Shown one piece after another: positions 24,366-36,708 of a stretch of 64,000 nucleotides of DNA (position 1 is its first letter; each line of letters starts with the position of its first letter). The position numbers were made by a program, and so were the translations under genes. Source of the stretch: Sphingomonas sp. LHG3406-1 (GTDB lineage: Bacteria; Pseudomonadota; Alphaproteobacteria; Sphingomonadales; Sphingomonadaceae); assembly GCF_029637485.1 (NCBI RefSeq), contig NZ_CP069128.1, positions 124,001 to 188,000 on the forward strand, read 5' to 3'. The notes under the pieces are model-generated. The model worked only from the letters and a program-made list of their open reading frames with translations. It was not told the origin of the DNA and did not search any database.

Positions 24366-24500
24366 GGGCGCCGGCGACATAGGCACGCCATGCGTTCGTC
24401 ACAATGCGCTTGGCAGCGCCATTTTCGTGTCTAAGGTGCCGCGCCACGCCAGGGCCCAAGGGCCCGTAACCATCTATTTGCGTCAAAGGTGCTTCGAGAC

Positions 24501-26099
24501 ATGGCCACCACCACACTCGATCATGGGGACAGCCGGGGAACCTTCCTTGGCCATCCCAAGGGTCTCTTCGTGCTGTTCTTCGCCGAAATGTGGGAGCGCT
24601 TTTCCTACTATGGCATGCGCGCGCTGCTGATCTTCTACCTGACGCAGCACTGGCTCTTTTCGGACTCTCAGGCCGGCCTGATCTACGGCGCCTATACCGC
24701 CCTGGTGTACATCACGCCGGTGCTCGGCGGTTATCTGGCCGACCGCTATCTGGGGCAGCGAAAGGCGGTCACATACGGGGCCGTGCTGCTGACCTTCGGC
24801 CACTTCCTGATGGGGTTCGAAGGCGATGGCGGACAGGATGCCGCCAGCCTCAACATCTTCTGGCTGGCGCTGGCCTTCATCATCGTCGGCTCGGGCTTCC
24901 TCAAGGCCAACATCTCGGTCATCGTCGGACAGCTCTACCCGCGTACAGACGTTCGCCGCGACGGTGCCTACACCATCTTCTACATGGGAATTAATCTCGG
25001 CGCCGCGCTCGGCTCGCTGCTCTGCGGCTACGTCGGCCAGACTTACGGCTGGGCTTACGGCTTCGGCCTTGCCGGCATCGGCATGCTGCTCGGCCTCATC
25101 GTGTTCGTCGCCTTCAAGGGCCTGTTGATCGGCCGCGGTGAAGCTCCCGACGCGGAACGGCTGAACCGCCGGGTCATGGGCATCAAGTTCGAGTGGCTGC
25201 TGTACCTCGTCGGAATCCTCGCCGTTGGCATCTGCTGGTGGATGGTGCAGAATCAGGCGATCGTGGGCACCTTCCTTGGTGTCGCCGGCCTGATCCTGGT
25301 GTCGTACGTACTCTACTCGGCGGTCGCCAAGCTCGACCGCGAAGCGCGCGATCGTATCTTCGCCGCCATGTTCCTGATCATCGGCTCGATCCTGTTCTGG
25401 GCCCTGTTCGAGCAGGCAGGGTCGTCGCTGAACCTGTACACCGACCGATACGTCGATCGCGCCGGCGTTCCGGCGTCGATGTTTCAGTCGATCAATGCCA
25501 TCTACATCGTGCTCTTGGCGCCGTTCTTCGCCGCGCTTTGGACCTGGCTCGGTCGCCGCGGGCTGGAGCCTTCGGCCCCGGCCAAGTTCGGCCTTGCGCT
25601 GATGCAGCTCGGCCTCGGCTTCCTGGTGCTGGTGTGGGGCGCGGCAACGGGTGATCTCACCCCGGTGCTGTTCATCTTCCTCATCTACCTCCTCCACACC
25701 ACGGGCGAGCTCTGCCTGTCGCCGGTTGGCCTGTCGGCGATGAACCGCCTGGCCCCGGCGCACATGGCGAGCCTCATCATGGGCACCTGGTTCTTCGCCT
25801 CGGCCACCGGCAATTTCGTCGCCGGCCTGATCGCCGCGGCAACGGGGTCGGAAGCGGCCTCGGGCGAAGGCGCGGGCAAGGAGACGGTGCTTGCCGTCTA
25901 CAGCCAGATCGGCTGGATCGCGATCGGCGTCGGCGTGGCCGTGCTGGTCATCTCGCCGCTGATCAAGAAGCTCATGCACCTCGACACGCTGCGCGACGAC
26001 GAGGACCTTGCCGGCCGCGCGGAGATGGGCGGCGACCGCGGACAGGACGCGGGCATGTTCCCGCAGGGCGAAACGGCCCCCAACACGCGGAAGGGCTGA
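24501..26099 (+). CDS. POT-family proton-dependent peptide transporter
   Basis: The 532-residue inner-membrane protein of the major facilitator superfamily has about 14 helices and imports di- and tripeptides with protons. The POT signature ExxERFSYYGMRALL is present (EMWERFSYYG), whose Glu and Arg couple proton and peptide movement, as is the second motif with FYMGINLGAALGSLL. It is first in an operon with two exported amidohydrolases (5-base gap to the next), suggesting uptake of products they release. Confidence 0.93.
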   Translation: MATTTLDHGDSRGTFLGHPKGLFVLFFAEMWERFSYYGMRALLIFYLTQHWLFSDSQAGLIYGAYTALVYITPVLGGYLADRYLGQRKAVTYGAVLLTFGHFLMGFEGDGGQDAASLNIFWLALAFIIVGSGFLKANISVIVGQLYPRTDVRRDGAYTIFYMGINLGAALGSLLCGYVGQTYGWAYGFGLAGIGMLLGLIVFVAFKGLLIGRGEAPDAERLNRRVMGIKFEWLLYLVGILAVGICWWMVQNQAIVGTFLGVAGLILVSYVLYSAVAKLDREARDRIFAAMFLIIGSILFWALFEQAGSSLNLYTDRYVDRAGVPASMFQSINAIYIVLLAPFFAALWTWLGRRGLEPSAPAKFGLALMQLGLGFLVLVWGAATGDLTPVLFIFLIYLLHTTGELCLSPVGLSAMNRLAPAHMASLIMGTWFFASATGNFVAGLIAAATGSEAASGEGAGKETVLAVYSQIGWIAIGVGVAVLVISPLIKKLMHLDTLRDDEDLAGRAEMGGDRGQDAGMFPQGETAPNTRKG

Positions 26100-31144: not shown

Positions 31145-32326
31145 ATGACGCGCAAGACCATTCCCCGGATCCTGATCATCGCCGGCTCCGACAGCGGGGG
31201 CGGTGCTGGAATCCAGGCCGACATCAAGACCGTCACCATGCTCGGTGGCCATGCCATGACCGCAATCACCGCCGTCACCGCGCAGAACAGTCTCGGAGTC
31301 GATGCCGTCCATCCGGTCCCGGCCGAAACGGTGCTCGCGCAAATCGATTCGGTGATCGCCGACTTTGGCGTCGATGCGATCAAGATCGGGATGATCGGCT
31401 CGGCCTTCACCGCACGGGTAGTGGCAGAGCGGCTGGCCGCGCTCGAGCAGCGGGTGCCACTGGTGTTCGATCCCGTCATGGTCGCGACCAGCGGCGCGAC
31501 GCTGGCTGACGAGGCGACCGTCGCGGCGTTCGGCGCGCTGATGGACCTCGCCACCATCGTCACGCCCAATCTTCCCGAACTCCATCGGCTGACCGGCAAG
31601 GAAGACCCGATCGAAGGCGCGCTGGGCCTCGTCTCCGGCCATCGTTGCGCGGTGCTGGTGAAGGGCGGCCATGATGAGGGCGAAGCCGTCGCCGATGCGC
31701 TGATCGAAGAAGACAATATGACCAGCTGGCAGGGCACGCGGATCGATACGCCGCACAGCCACGGCACCGGTTGCACCCTCGCCAGCGCCATTGCGGTGGG
31801 CCTGGCCGAAGGCCGCTCGCTTGCCGAATCGGTCGCGCAGGCGCGGGTGTTCGTCCGCATGGCTCTGCTGGAAGCACCAGGCATCGGTGGCGGGAACGGA
31901 CCGATGGGTCATGGCCGGGTCCGGCTCGATACCGGCGGCAGTCCGCGCCTCAATCAGGTCACTGTCACGGGCCGGGATTATGCGGCGCAGGTGGCCTTCT
32001 ATCGCAAGCTCGGGCTCCAGCAGATCGTCGACAGCCCGGACAATGGCTATGCCCGCTTCGAGACCTGGGGCGGCGCCACCTTCTCTGTCCAGATCGACCC
32101 CGAGGAGGAGATTGCGGCCACCAGCGCCGTTTATTTCGAGTGCGACGACCTGGACGATCGCGTCGAGACGCTTGCCCGCGGCGGCATCGTCTTTGAACAT
32201 GGTCCGCGCAAGCAGCCGTGGATGTGGCACGAAGCACGGCTCCGCGACCCAGCCGGGAACATCGTCTTCCTCTACCAGGCGGGGGAAGCGCGCCGCTTCC
32301 CACCGTGGCGAATCGGCCAGCCCTGA
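31145..32326 (+). CDS. thiD: ThiD-type HMP/HMP-phosphate kinase fused to a VOC (glyoxalase-like) domain
   Basis: The 393-residue protein has two parts. Residues 1 to ~262 are the ribokinase-fold ThiD enzyme, which phosphorylates hydroxymethylpyrimidine and its monophosphate for thiamine synthesis (AGSDSGGGAGIQADIKT, FDPVMVATSG, VLVKGGH, HSHGTGCTLASAIA). Residues ~265-385 form a vicinal-oxygen-chelate domain (GRDYAAQVAFYRKLGLQQIV; a closing RDPAGNIVFLYQ). The frame is continuous, so this is one polypeptide. Most ThiD proteins are ~265 residues without such a tail. No thiamine riboswitch is visible upstream; the spacer is only 26 bases. Confidence 0.88.
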   Translation: MTRKTIPRILIIAGSDSGGGAGIQADIKTVTMLGGHAMTAITAVTAQNSLGVDAVHPVPAETVLAQIDSVIADFGVDAIKIGMIGSAFTARVVAERLAALEQRVPLVFDPVMVATSGATLADEATVAAFGALMDLATIVTPNLPELHRLTGKEDPIEGALGLVSGHRCAVLVKGGHDEGEAVADALIEEDNMTSWQGTRIDTPHSHGTGCTLASAIAVGLAEGRSLAESVAQARVFVRMALLEAPGIGGGNGPMGHGRVRLDTGGSPRLNQVTVTGRDYAAQVAFYRKLGLQQIVDSPDNGYARFETWGGATFSVQIDPEEEIAATSAVYFECDDLDDRVETLARGGIVFEHGPRKQPWMWHEARLRDPAGNIVFLYQAGEARRFPPWRIGQP

Positions 32327-32399: not shown

Positions 32400-32418
32400 G
32401 GCTGCTGGAGCAGCAGCC
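32400..32418 (+). promoter_or_regulatory. Hairpin upstream of the small-peptide gene
   Basis: GGCTGCTG-GAG-CAGCAGCC is a perfect 8-bp stem with a 3-base loop, ending 21 bases before the peptide ATG. No T-run follows. It could be a partial terminator after thiD, an attenuator, or an mRNA 5' stabiliser. The preceding 50 bases are unusually AT-rich for this window (TTGCATTTAATAAAACC), so a promoter probably lies there. Confidence 0.45.
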
Positions 32419-32439
32419 TTGGCTCAGAAGGCGTGCGCG

Positions 32440-32547
32440 ATGAAGAAGACTTGGAAGAAACCCGAACTGAAGCGCATGGTCGCCGGCGCGGCGGAGAATG
32501 GTCCCAGCAACTTCCGCTCGGACGGTCCGAACAATCAGCGGAGCTGA
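32440..32547 (+). CDS. Putative RiPP (lasso-like) precursor peptide, 35 residues
   Basis: The sequence begins MKKTWKKPELKRMV, like the KKxY/WxxPxL leaders of alphaproteobacterial lasso precursors, then AGAAEN, then GPSNFRSDGPNNQRS. If cut before Gly21, the core has Gly at position 1 and its only Asp at position 8, the geometry for an 8-residue macrolactam ring with a 7-residue tail. The usual Thr at leader position -2 is absent (Glu instead). An asparagine-synthetase-like gene starts 28 bases after the stop. The core is rich in Asn, Ser, Gly and Arg with no Cys or Thr, which argues against lanthipeptide or thiopeptide classes. Translation is not proven. Confidence 0.6.
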   Translation: MKKTWKKPELKRMVAGAAENGPSNFRSDGPNNQRS

Positions 32548-32559
32548 GGGCGGCTCGGA

Positions 32560-32572
32560 CCCCCAATGGGGG
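32560..32572 (+). promoter_or_regulatory. Hairpin covering the cyclase ribosome-binding site
   Basis: CCCCC-AAT-GGGGG forms a tight stem whose 3' arm is the only plausible Shine-Dalgarno stretch for the TTG start at 32576. A longer inverted repeat (GGTCCGA at 32524, TCGGACC at 32555) encloses the peptide stop. The arrangement could hold the ratio of peptide to enzyme high. Confidence 0.5.
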
Positions 32573-32575
32573 CAC

Positions 32576-34453
32576 TTGTCTGATATTGCCGCCATCTGGG
32601 TCGCAGCGGCGACGCGGCGGCCGGGCCACTGCGTCACCGCTCTTGCTGGGGCGGGAGCCAGGCCGGTGGACATCGCAGCATCTGCTCCCTGGGAAGGAGC
32701 CGAACTAGCCGGCGGTGGCGGCGATTGCGGCATCGCGAGCCTCGGCGATCTTTCCGCGGCGGTGAAAGGCGCCATCACCAATGGCGCAGAGCTTGGATGG
32801 CCTGGCCAGGCTCCTGTCCGCGGGGCGGACGCGGCCAGGCTTTTGCTGCACCTCGTGCAGCGCAGCGGTCTTGAAGCGCTGCACGGAATTTGCGGTTCGG
32901 TTTCAGCGCTAATCTTCGACCGGCGATCGCGCTCCTTGCACGCATGGCGCAGCAACGGATGCGAGCACAGCCTGTTCGTCGCGGCGCCTCCGGGGCTGAC
33001 GGTCGCCGCCAGCAGGCCGGAATGCATCTTCGCGAACGCATTGGTACCTAAGGAACTCGATTTCGAGGCTGCCGCTGCCTGGGCAGCCCAGGTGCCGACG
33101 ATCGGCTCGCGCAGCATGTACCAGAGCGTTCGTCGCGTCCGTCCGGGTCAGGTCCTGGCCGTTGCGCCCGGGGTCCAGCCGAAAGAGGTCGCGCGCTGGC
33201 GGCCCCGGCGCATCCCGCAGTCATTCCGGTCCCTCCGGGAAGCGGGTGAAGAACTCCATGCGACTATCGGTCGCGCGGTCGCGGACACCATTGGCGAGCG
33301 TGACCAAGTTGGCCTCCTTCTCAGTGGCGGACGAGACTCGAGTGCGGTGCTTGCGATGGCATCGGCGCATCTTGCCGAACGGGGACGGGCGCTGCACGCC
33401 TTCACCGGCGCGCCGGCCCTTGGCGTGTCGGCACGGGCGATGCCGGGCTGTGTTGCCGACGAGGGCGAGGCGGCGGCCGAGACGGTCGCACGTTTCCCCG
33501 ATGTCGTGCACCACATCTGCCGGCCGGAGCCCGGAAGCTTCCTGGAAATCCTGCCTAAGATTCATCGCACATCGCTGCAACCGGTCGGCAATCTCGGCAA
33601 CTGGCCCTGGTACTGGGCCTGCCTCGAGCAGGCGCGCGGTTCCGGTGTCGAGGTGATGCTGTCGGGAGGCATGGGAAATCTGACGATCAGCACCGGATCA
33701 CGCGAATTCCTCACTGATATCGCCGCCGAACAAGGAATTGCGGCGGCACTACGCTGGTTGCCGAGCTCGGCCGGCAGGCAGGGGACCGCCTGGCTGAACG
33801 CCGCGCATGTGCTGCTCCGTCCCCATCTTCCGCGGCGAGCGGTGGAGGCGATCCTCCGTGCCAGTGGCCGCGACCGTCATGTCAGCATGGAAGCCCCCGT
33901 CATCCATCCGGACCTCCGCGCCCAAGCGGAGCGCGACTATGCGGACGGCTGGCCGGACCAGTCGTCGCTGACGGCATTCGGATGGCGCCAAGCCATGCTG
34001 GCGGAGATGGACAGCGCCGCCAACCTGTCGGCCGCCCTGGTCGGGTTCGACGAGCGCGATCCGACCCGCGATCCGCGCGTCATCCAGCTCATCCTTTCCA
34101 TGCCGCCGGAATATCTGCTGCCCCGGCCGGACGATCCAAAGCCGCTGTTCACCGAAGCCTTTGGTCGCTCATTGCCGCGTCGCGTGGCGCGCTCGACCAT
34201 CAGGGGATATCAGGGTGCGGACTGGGATGCCCAATTCCCCGTTGCCGATGTGGAGTCCCGCTTCCGGACCCTGTTCGACCATCCGCTCAACCAGCAGCTT
34301 TTCGACCGGAACTTCATTCTTCGTGCCGTTCCGCAGAGACCGACCGACGTTGATGCCTTGAGGACAGGATCGGTCATCGACCTTCATCGCAACCAGTTGC
34401 TTGGCGCCCTCGCGGTCGCCGATTGGGTCGCCGTGAACTTCCCCGACGGCTAG
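32576..34453 (+). CDS. Asparagine synthetase B-like protein, lasso-cyclase-like
   Basis: The protein has 625 residues. An N-terminal class-II glutaminase-like region (about 1-190) lacks the catalytic Cys at position 2 (it starts MSDIAAIW), so it should not use glutamine. The ATP-pyrophosphatase domain follows with the PP-loop LLLSGGRDSS (Ser250) that adenylates a carboxylate. This combination is seen in lasso cyclases (McjC/LarC type), which activate the ring Asp or Glu. The TTG at 32576 is chosen because it restores a family-like N-terminus and has GGGGG before it; a GTG at 32666 is an alternative. No B1/B2 leader-binding or protease gene and no ABC exporter is nearby. parC follows after 20 bases. 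Confidence 0.75.
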   Translation: MSDIAAIWVAAATRRPGHCVTALAGAGARPVDIAASAPWEGAELAGGGGDCGIASLGDLSAAVKGAITNGAELGWPGQAPVRGADAARLLLHLVQRSGLEALHGICGSVSALIFDRRSRSLHAWRSNGCEHSLFVAAPPGLTVAASRPECIFANALVPKELDFEAAAAWAAQVPTIGSRSMYQSVRRVRPGQVLAVAPGVQPKEVARWRPRRIPQSFRSLREAGEELHATIGRAVADTIGERDQVGLLLSGGRDSSAVLAMASAHLAERGRALHAFTGAPALGVSARAMPGCVADEGEAAAETVARFPDVVHHICRPEPGSFLEILPKIHRTSLQPVGNLGNWPWYWACLEQARGSGVEVMLSGGMGNLTISTGSREFLTDIAAEQGIAAALRWLPSSAGRQGTAWLNAAHVLLRPHLPRRAVEAILRASGRDRHVSMEAPVIHPDLRAQAERDYADGWPDQSSLTAFGWRQAMLAEMDSAANLSAALVGFDERDPTRDPRVIQLILSMPPEYLLPRPDDPKPLFTEAFGRSLPRRVARSTIRGYQGADWDAQFPVADVESRFRTLFDHPLNQQLFDRNFILRAVPQRPTDVDALRTGSVIDLHRNQLLGALAVADWVAVNFPDG

Positions 34454-34473: not shown

Positions 34474-36708
34474 ATGCAGCCTTCCGAAACCGAGATCGAG
34501 GTCCCGTTCGACGCCGCTCTGTCCGAGCGCTACCTCGTCTATGCCCTGTCGACGATCACCGCCCGTTCGCTTCCGGACGTGCGCGACGGGCTGAAACCGG
34601 TGCACCGTCGCCTGCTGTGGGCGATGCGGCTGTTGCGGCTCGATCCGACCGGCGCCTACAAGAAGTCGGCTCGCGTCGTCGGCGACGTCATCGGCAAATA
34701 CCACCCGCATGGCGACCAGTCGGTCTACGACGCAATGGTCCGCCTCGCGCAGAGCTTCGCCCTTCGCTATCCGCTCGTCGATGGACAGGGCAATTTCGGC
34801 AACATCGACGGCGATAATGCCGCCGCCTACCGCTACACCGAAGCCCGGCTGACGGCGATCGCAACCCAGCTAATGGCCGGGCTCGACGAGGGCACGGTCG
34901 ACTTCAAGCCGACCTACAACGGTGAGGAAGAAGAGCCCGAGGTCTTTCCCGGCCTGTTCCCCAACCTGCTCGCCAATGGCGCGAGCGGCATTGCGGTCGG
35001 AATGGCGACCAGCATTCCGCCGCACAATGTCGGCGAGCTGATTGATGCAGCGATGCACCTGATCGACAATCCGGGTGCAGAAACGCGCGACCTGATGGAC
35101 TTCGTCGCCGGTCCGGATTTCCCGACCGGCGGCCTCGTCGTCGATGCGCGCGAAACCATCCTCGCGGCCTATGAAAGCGGCCGCGGCAGCTTCCGCCTCC
35201 GAGCGCGGGCGACGCAGGAGAAGGAAAAGGGCGGCGGCTGGGATCTGGTTGTTACCGAGATTCCTTACGGCGTGCAGAAGGCCAAGCTGATCGAGCAGAT
35301 CGCCGAGCTGATCGGCAACAAGAAGCTGCCGATCCTCGCCGACGTTCGCGACGAGAGCGCCGAGGATTTGCGTATCGTGCTCGAGCCGCGCAGCCGGACG
35401 GTCGATCCGGCGCTGCTGCTGGAGAGCCTATACCGGCTGACCGATCTGGAAATCCGCTTCCCTCTGAACCTCAATGTGCTCGACCAGCATCGCACGCCTG
35501 GGGTGATGGGGCTGAAGAGCTGCCTGACGGCCTGGCTGTCGTTCCAGATCGAAGTGCTGCTCAACCGCTCGCGCACGCGGATTGCCAAGATCGAGGACCG
35601 GCTGGAGCTGCTCGACGGCTTCCTCATCGCCTATCTGAACCTCGACCGCGTCATCGAGATCATCCGCACCGAGGACGAGCCCAAGGCCGTGATGATGGCC
35701 GAGTTCGGCCTTACCGACCGGCAGGCGGAGGCGATCCTCAACATGCGCCTGCGCTCCTTGCGCAAGCTGGAGGAGATGGAGATCGCCAAGGAGCGCAGCT
35801 CGCTGGCGAAGGAGCGTGAGGAGCTGCTGGCGCTGGTCGAAAGCCCGCGCAAGCAGCGCAATCGGCTCAAGAAGGACCTCGAGGGCGTCAAGGCGAAGTT
35901 CGCCGATGCGCGGCGAACCACCATCGAGGAGAAGCCGCTGGCCGCGCGGGCGGAGATCGACTGGTCGGCGATGATCGAGAAGGAGCCGATCACGGTCATC
36001 CTTTCCGCTCGCGGCTGGATACGGGCGATGAAGGGACATCTCGCAGCCGAGGAGTTCGCCACCCTCAAGTTCCGCGAGGGCGATGAGCTGTGGGGACGGC
36101 CGATCCATGCGCAGACGACCGACAGGATCCTCATCGCCGGCGAAAATGGCCGAGTCTACACGCTCACCGGTGACAAGCTGCCGGGCGGCCGCGGCTTCGG
36201 CGAGCCGGTACGGCTGTCGCTCGACCTGCCCGCAGAGGTGGAAATCGCTGCCATGCTGGTGGTGAAGCCCGCCTCCCGTCTGCTTGCGGCCAGCAGCGAT
36301 GGGCGCGGCTTCGTGACCAGCGGCGAAGCGGTGCTGGCCGAGACCCGCAAGGGCAAGCAGCTGATGAACCTTCGTCCCGACGCCAAGTTGCAGGTGCTTC
36401 GGCTGATTCCGGAAGGCGCGGACGCGGTGGCGGTCATCGGTGACAATCGCAAGCTCCTGGTCTTTAACCTGGCCGAACTGCCCGAAATGGGTCGCGGCTC
36501 CGGTATCCAGTTGCAGCGCTACCGCGACGGCGGGCTCGCCGACGTGACGGTGCTCACCATGACCGACGGGCTCAGCTGGAGCATGGGCGGCGACAGCGGG
36601 CGTACGCGCAGCGAATCCGACCTCACGCCCTGGCGGGCGATCCGCGGCGCGAGCGGTCGGATGGCGCCGCTTGGCTTTCCCCGCAGCAACAAGTTCCAGG
36701 GCGAGTAG
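34474..36708 (+). CDS. parC: DNA topoisomerase IV subunit A
   Basis: The 744-residue subunit breaks and rejoins both DNA strands when decatenating daughter chromosomes, with ParE. The winged-helix/tower region starts [17 protein letters not shown], the quinolone-determining segment is [16 protein letters not shown], and the catalytic Tyr is Tyr121 in [11 protein letters not shown] coiled coil and a C-terminal DNA-wrapping beta-pinwheel follow. The absence of the GyrA box (QRRGGKG) fits ParC. The ATG at 34474 is preferred to an upstream TTG. Confidence 0.95.

Follow-up and report, generated by a model that had tools for sequence, protein, structure and literature searches.

A predicted lasso precursor-cyclase pair in Sphingomonas sp. 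LHG3406-1 with candidate maturation genes dispersed in the chromosome

The window analyzed here, a stretch of 64,000 nucleotides of Sphingomonas sp. LHG3406-1 (contig NZ_CP069128.1), contains between the thiD and parC genes a small gene (A) encoding a predicted precursor peptide, followed by a gene encoding a predicted lasso cyclase (C) with an asparagine-synthetase-like fold (Table 1). A preliminary description of this DNA had noted a 35-codon open reading frame (ORF), a gap of 28 bp, and a cyclase-like protein with the PP-loop SGGRDSS and without Cys2, all of which was confirmed by the ORF reading and an alignment; the genes around the pair agreed with its placement between thiD and parC away from any B gene. 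Since thiD and parC are the immediate neighbors, no B gene or exporter adjoins the pair, although no separate search for an exporter was made. We propose, with a probability of roughly 0.8, that A and C belong to a phosphorylated-type lasso peptide of the paeninodin/pseudomycoidin class, whose remaining genes (B1, B2, K, and N) are found at other places of the same chromosome.

Table 1. Features of the precursor-cyclase pair and of its flanks (window coordinates)
Feature	Position	Strand	Basis
Precursor gene A, 35 aa (ATG at 32440)	32440..32547	+	ORF reading; conserved family
Leader motif W5xxP8xL10, YxxPxL equivalent, predicted to bind B1/RRE	32452..32469	+	W and P invariant in 25 aligned precursors; role predicted
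Leader end AGAAE, Ala18 = -2, Glu19 = -1; predicted B2 cut after Glu19	32482..32496	+	Conservation, Trp spacing
Predicted core NGPSNFRSDGPNNQRS	32497..32544	+	Conserved D/E at 8/9 and final Ser; register predicted
Asp28 codon, predicted ring acid Asp9	32521-32523	+	Register predicted
Ser35, C-terminal, predicted kinase target	last residue of precursor	+	Ser last in 27/28 compiled
Predicted lasso cyclase C, 625 aa, TTG start	32576..34453	+	
ATP-pyrophosphatase loop SGGRDSS of C, residues 250-256	33323..33343	+	S250, G252, D254, and S255 invariant in 12 aligned
thiD-glyoxalase fusion, left flank of insertion site, outside the pathway	31145..32326	+	
parC (ATG at 34474), right flank of insertion site, outside the pathway	34474..36708	+	91-95% identity to near relatives

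The small ORF was found to be conserved alongside the cyclase in a sample of 71 genomes of the genus, the own genome included. A hidden Markov model (HMM) built from 25 of 28 hand-compiled precursors (G018a, G022, and G023 were left out) gave 33 matches in 28 genomes; one of them, within a 455-aa frame of G063, was taken as chance and removed, which left 32 homologues in 27 genomes, namely the 28 already compiled, three new ones that fit the family (G033b, G062b, and G012), and that of G008. The motifs WxxPx[LVI] and AGxAE are common to the precursors lying beside most C matches without Cys2, and the A, G, A, and E of AGxAE, like W and P of the leader, are invariant in the aligned precursors. 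An acidic residue (D/E) stands at position 8 or 9 after AE in 31 of the 32 precursors, and the final residue is Ser in 31 of 32. In the compiled set, whose cores are 15-24 residues long, D/E at 8/9 was observed in 28/28, versus a mean of 4.1 and a maximum of 13/28 in 20,000 residue shuffles, and residue 1 after AE is A, S, or N in 25/28. A search of genome contigs with the C alignment, of which the best 80 of 105 loci were read, yielded 11 further AGxAE precursors beside cyclases on named contigs, none of them among the 32; all 11 carry D/E at 8/9 and end with Ser, these precursors having been selected by the AGxAE motif, with looser relatives (e.g. AEHAE, AADAE, and ASDAN) present but uncounted. 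Other lasso precursor types also occur in the genus, e.g. AxxARM...E...GKS (G036 and G053) and a Thr(-2) type (G002 and G020). A second type, A-x-x-A-x-M with an acid about 8 residues on and often a GKS end, was seen beside a cyclase with B2 nearby in loci L047, L052, L053, L062, and L128, with two copies in L053 and L128.

Residue 2 of C is Ser, and Cys2 occurs in 0 of 12 aligned cyclases, the own one included, which upholds the cyclase assignment; a plain, glutamine-hydrolyzing asparagine synthetase was rejected on the lack of Cys2 and the lasso-type context. C matches at E<=1e-10 were found in 37 of the 71 genomes. Those in G035 and G048, two genomes without a B1 or B2 match, include Cys2 enzymes, as do some further matches in other genomes of the genus. 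A protein search with C returned 10 proteins, the closest foreign one being 48% identical, and a single-sequence search of the genome contigs with C gave no match, whereas the alignment-based search succeeded. No lasso cyclase was present among the 50 structural matches listed for C.

The supposition that processing enzymes are supplied from elsewhere was supported by the same chromosome, which carries one B1 gene 114 kb from the pair and one N-B2-K block 127-128 kb away. B1 (C1:270896), the predicted RiPP recognition element (RRE) protein (RiPP, ribosomally synthesized and post-translationally modified peptide), is the only PqqD match over cut-off in the genome (PF05402, 67.1 bits, cut-off 23.4); its best NCBIfam match, a lasso PqqD model, scored 49, below the cut-off of 80. 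The predicted leader peptidase B2 (C1:284751, at 128 kb) is the sole PF13471 match and reached 61.2 bits with the NCBIfam lasso B2 model NF033537 (cut-off 33). N (C1:283726) is the single NTP_transf_5 match, and the HPrK-like kinase gene K begins at the B2 end (about C1:285 kb). In relatives with a clustered layout, all of N, B2, K, C, A, and B1 are found at one locus (L094, L096, L100, L109, L110, L111, and L113), and a further cluster (L107, in G012) is complete except for the precursor gene, situated about 17 kb from it. These relatives, with the pair embedded in B1-B2-C-K-N clusters, speak against an orphan locus or a wholly new type of RiPP, as had been considered. In this clade the B1 gene lies 17 bp downstream of an MsbA-related ATP-binding cassette (ABC) transporter gene (L134:1483-3122), and the gene after B1 is presumably enoyl-CoA-hydratase-like. 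Although the clade conserves this ABC gene, a possible exporter, its matches are to general exporter models, and we do not claim it as a lasso exporter. The K protein contains the motif H-x14-GxxGxGKS-x15-DD, with the spacing of the BsfK residues H148, G163, G166, G168, K169, S170, D186, and D187 listed in PMC10368454.

To describe the dispersal, distances were measured with a limit of 25 kb for 24 precursor-cyclase pairs in the 19 genomes of 10 contigs or fewer, the other 8 of the 27 precursor-bearing genomes, in many contigs, being left out. B2, B1, and N were all within the limit in 5/24 pairs (for G012 the position of the cyclase was used, and two stop codons interrupt the G062 cyclase match), all farther away or on another contig in 12/24, and mixed in 7/24; the own genome, with genes 114-128 kb apart, does not form one cluster. 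Five genomes with two pairs each carry one B1 and one B2. B1 was present in 25/25 genomes with a precursor versus 19/46 without (p = 2.4e-7), and B2 in 24/25 versus 24/46 (p = 1.2e-4), in tests that take no account of shared ancestry; the B2 exception, G059, is a 79%-complete assembly. The later recognized G008 and G012 have both genes, giving 27/27 for B1 and 26/27 for B2. The B2 column of the 80-locus scan was not used, because a B2 query overlapped the kinase gene. On a quick cyclase tree with 23 labeled rows, 5 changes of B2 between near and far were needed, a pattern as scattered as that of shuffled labels (mean 5.4); the cyclase and B2 histories may differ, and therefore we call the dispersal only recurrent and claim no separate origins. 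Conservation and co-occurrence suggest that the dispersed parts may act together in trans. In G062 (L025/L109) the cyclase of an otherwise complete lasso cluster is broken by stop codons, and a second, open pair lies 140 kb from the interrupted cluster.

The insertion site was compared in the seven genomes nearest by thiD, the own one included. In four of them (G008, G019, G022, and G023) parC follows thiD after about 20 bp, and in the other three (own, G033, and G068) a pair lies between both genes; the remaining 23 of 30 thiD loci read had no parC match in the available stretch (<=1.5 kb). By best tblastn segment, the own genome is 85-86% identical to G033 and G068 in thiD, 91-92% in parC, 61-63% in B1, 63-67% in B2, 59-61% in K, and 60-65% in N. 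The own cyclase is only 26% identical to that of either genome, and in the quick tree it forms a long branch that does not group with the cyclases of the same site. From KKxW to AGxAE the own leader matches that of G033 in 16/18 residues and that of G068b in 14/18. Because C is so divergent, in identity and in tree placement, relative to the flanks and the remote genes, the thiD-parC slot seems to hold different cassettes, or else C evolves very fast, with the remote set inherited normally. The precursor-cyclase pair looks like a movable cassette.

The register of the predicted core was set by comparison with 28 precursors, some of them near-identical, that were picked by rule from 78 of the 80 loci (L217-L294) for carrying Thr(-2), Asp or Glu at 8/9, and Ser as the last residue. 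The distance from the leader aromatic residue to Thr(-2) is 13 in 22/28, 14 in 5/28, and 15 in 1/28, and that from Trp to the Ala of AGxAE is 13 in 28/28 family precursors. Because this matches the commonest Thr(-2) spacing, Ala18 is placed at -2 and Glu19 at -1, which makes Asn the first core residue and Asn1-Asp9, rather than Gly1-Asp8, the probable ring. The Gly1-Asp8 ring and the Glu at leader -2 first proposed are therefore probably one residue off; the acid of that ring is kept in 31/32 precursors, and Gly is found at its first position in only 9/28. Non-Thr penultimate residues (Ile, Val, or Ala at -2) are reported as exceptions (PMC10368454), and hence Thr(-2) is no strict requirement; Asn1 has a precedent in metanodin (PMC12670498). 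The same pathway with a cut after Asn20, which would restore Gly1-Asp8 with Glu at -2, is a less likely alternative. It would draw on the nine Gly residues just mentioned and on the five reference precursors in which Thr(-2) stands one residue later, and it would put the acid at 7 or 8, inside the known range of 7-9 (PMC10368454). Residue 1 would, however, then be K, R, Q, H, I, or V in 12/28, whereas the cut after Glu gives A, S, or N in 25/28, with the invariant spacing of 13 and the metanodin precedent also favoring the latter.

With the Asn1-Asp9 register, maturation might proceed as follows. B1 would bind the leader through WxxPxL, K would phosphorylate the C-terminal Ser of the precursor, and B2 would cleave after Ala(-2)-Glu(-1). 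C would then adenylate the Asp9 side chain with ATP and link it to the alpha-amine of Asn1, so that a ring of nine residues would close around the threaded tail, and N may add a sugar or a nucleotide to the phosphate. In the known systems the C-terminal Ser is phosphorylated by PadeK, ThcoK, SyanK, and PsmK, and a PsmN-dependent hexose addition has been reported (reviewed in PMC9266682). The single-copy enzymes would mature the precursor in trans, and in five genomes they coexist with two pairs.

The location of K and N provided a second unusual feature. In the own genome (L006:1954-9887, C1:277953-285886) the exopolysaccharide (EPS) genes wza, wzc, orf394, and a polymerase/ligase gene are directly followed by N, B2, and K; the wzc name is supported by a model match, and wza and the ligase are what we take these genes to be from their sequences. 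K and/or N lie downstream of wza-wzc-orf394-ligase genes in many loci, and N is <5 kb from orf394 in 23/27 genomes with an AGxAE precursor versus 1/9 other genomes compared, the exceptions being G029 and G034 (far), G066 (other contig), and G059 (no match). The order B1, about 13 kb including the EPS genes, and N-B2-K is shared by the own genome, G033, and G008; G019, G022, and G023 show the same B1-EPS-N-K order with B2 located elsewhere. Since orf394 occurs in 49/71 genomes, some of them without these lasso genes, the linkage does not amount to dependence. The literature searched, mostly without subscription papers, yielded no account of scattered lasso genes or of a lasso K or N placed at an EPS locus, and none of six queried terms was present in a Sphingomonas EPS paper (PMC11340318). 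A broader scheme, which we consider doubtful, is a modular system of the genus in which a fixed B1/B2/K/N set serves exchangeable, site-moving A-C cassettes and the lasso phosphoserine is joined to an EPS sugar. This joining is suggested by the place of K and N at the wza-wzc-polymerase/ligase locus and, if true, would make the peptide a component of the cell surface glycan or tether it there.

Several observations weigh against a dispersed lasso pathway. The precursor has no Thr(-2) but Ala there (or Glu in the alternative register), and the reference spacing itself varies by one residue (5/28). With both NCBIfam lasso cyclase models that it matched, C stayed below the cut-off, and so did two cyclases from full clusters. 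The G008 precursor (L211), adjoining a 640-aa cyclase ORF, has Gln at position 8 and a core without Asp or Glu, and the G018a precursor lacks the final Ser. Shared ancestry is ignored by the co-occurrence tests, and B1/B2 are also present in genomes with other lasso types; moreover, because EPS genes stand beside K/N in most of the precursor-bearing genomes, K/N might serve the polysaccharide. The long branch of C, apart from the cyclases of the same site, also counts here. Together with the distances of 114-128 kb and the stop codons in the clustered G062 cyclase, it would suit the idea that A and C no longer work with B1, B2, K, and N, either as a decaying remnant or with C acting without leader removal. 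We judge this quite improbable, because all six genes are open in the own genome and the motifs checked in A, C, and K show no damage; dispersal is frequent (12/24 pairs), yet B1 is kept in 27/27 precursor-bearing genomes. That the substrate of C is a RiPP other than a lasso peptide, on which it forms, for example, an ester, an amide of a side chain, or an amidated acid, is very improbable, since the conserved acid at 8/9, the lasso B1/B2 genes, the leader motif, and the C-terminal Ser make up a lasso pattern.

Other features of the window were recorded as well. A perfect short inverted repeat, CCCCC-AAT-GGGGG (32558-32570), lies right upstream of the cyclase start and was not found in this form in relatives. 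The idea that the gap between A and C holds a conserved hairpin (in the window, CCCCCAATGGGGG) was dropped, none common to the other 27 intergenic stretches being found by eye. ThiD, an HMP-P (4-amino-5-hydroxymethyl-2-methylpyrimidine phosphate) kinase with a C-terminal fused glyoxalase domain, is matched in 70/71 genomes of the genus, and an ORF resembling by eye a POT-type peptide transporter (24489-26099) lies about 6 kb upstream of the cassette.

What appears new here is a proposed lasso pathway of the kinase type that has Ala(-2) leaders and whose genes are spread along a chromosome, and both the recurrent scattering and the position of K/N at an exopolysaccharide locus are unusual. Searches that require a B gene beside the cyclase would overlook such pathways or label them orphans, and among the contiguous genomes compared this adjacency is the exception in the genus. 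The system would also offer a natural test of one RRE/peptidase/kinase set serving several precursor-cyclase pairs in trans, and it bears on the recognition of Ala(-2) leaders and on the reason for the EPS location of the tailoring genes.

The closest known systems are those of paeninodin (pade), pseudomycoidin (psm), and Sphingobium yanoikuyae (syan) (PMC9266682, PMC10368454), which share A, B1, B2, C, K, and, in psm, N, as well as the leader aromatic-xxPxL motif, the C-terminal Ser, and the acid at 8/9. In contrast to them, Ala(-2)-Glu(-1) replaces Thr(-2) here, and A-C, B1, and N-B2-K lie at three chromosomal places with no known exporter beside the pair. The bsf cluster of Bradymonas sediminis is alike in its non-Thr penultimate residue, Ile(-2), and in its B1/B2/C/K/N set, but BsfK phosphorylates Ser3, the core ends in Asp, the genes form one cluster, and the leader is another one (PMC10368454). 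Metanodin has Asn as first ring residue, as predicted here, but with Thr(-2) and clustered genes (PMC12670498). Unclustered lanthipeptide proteases resemble the present case in that a RiPP leader protease is encoded away from its precursor (PMC8960859); they belong to another class, whereas the present pair is separated from all of B1, B2, K, and N.
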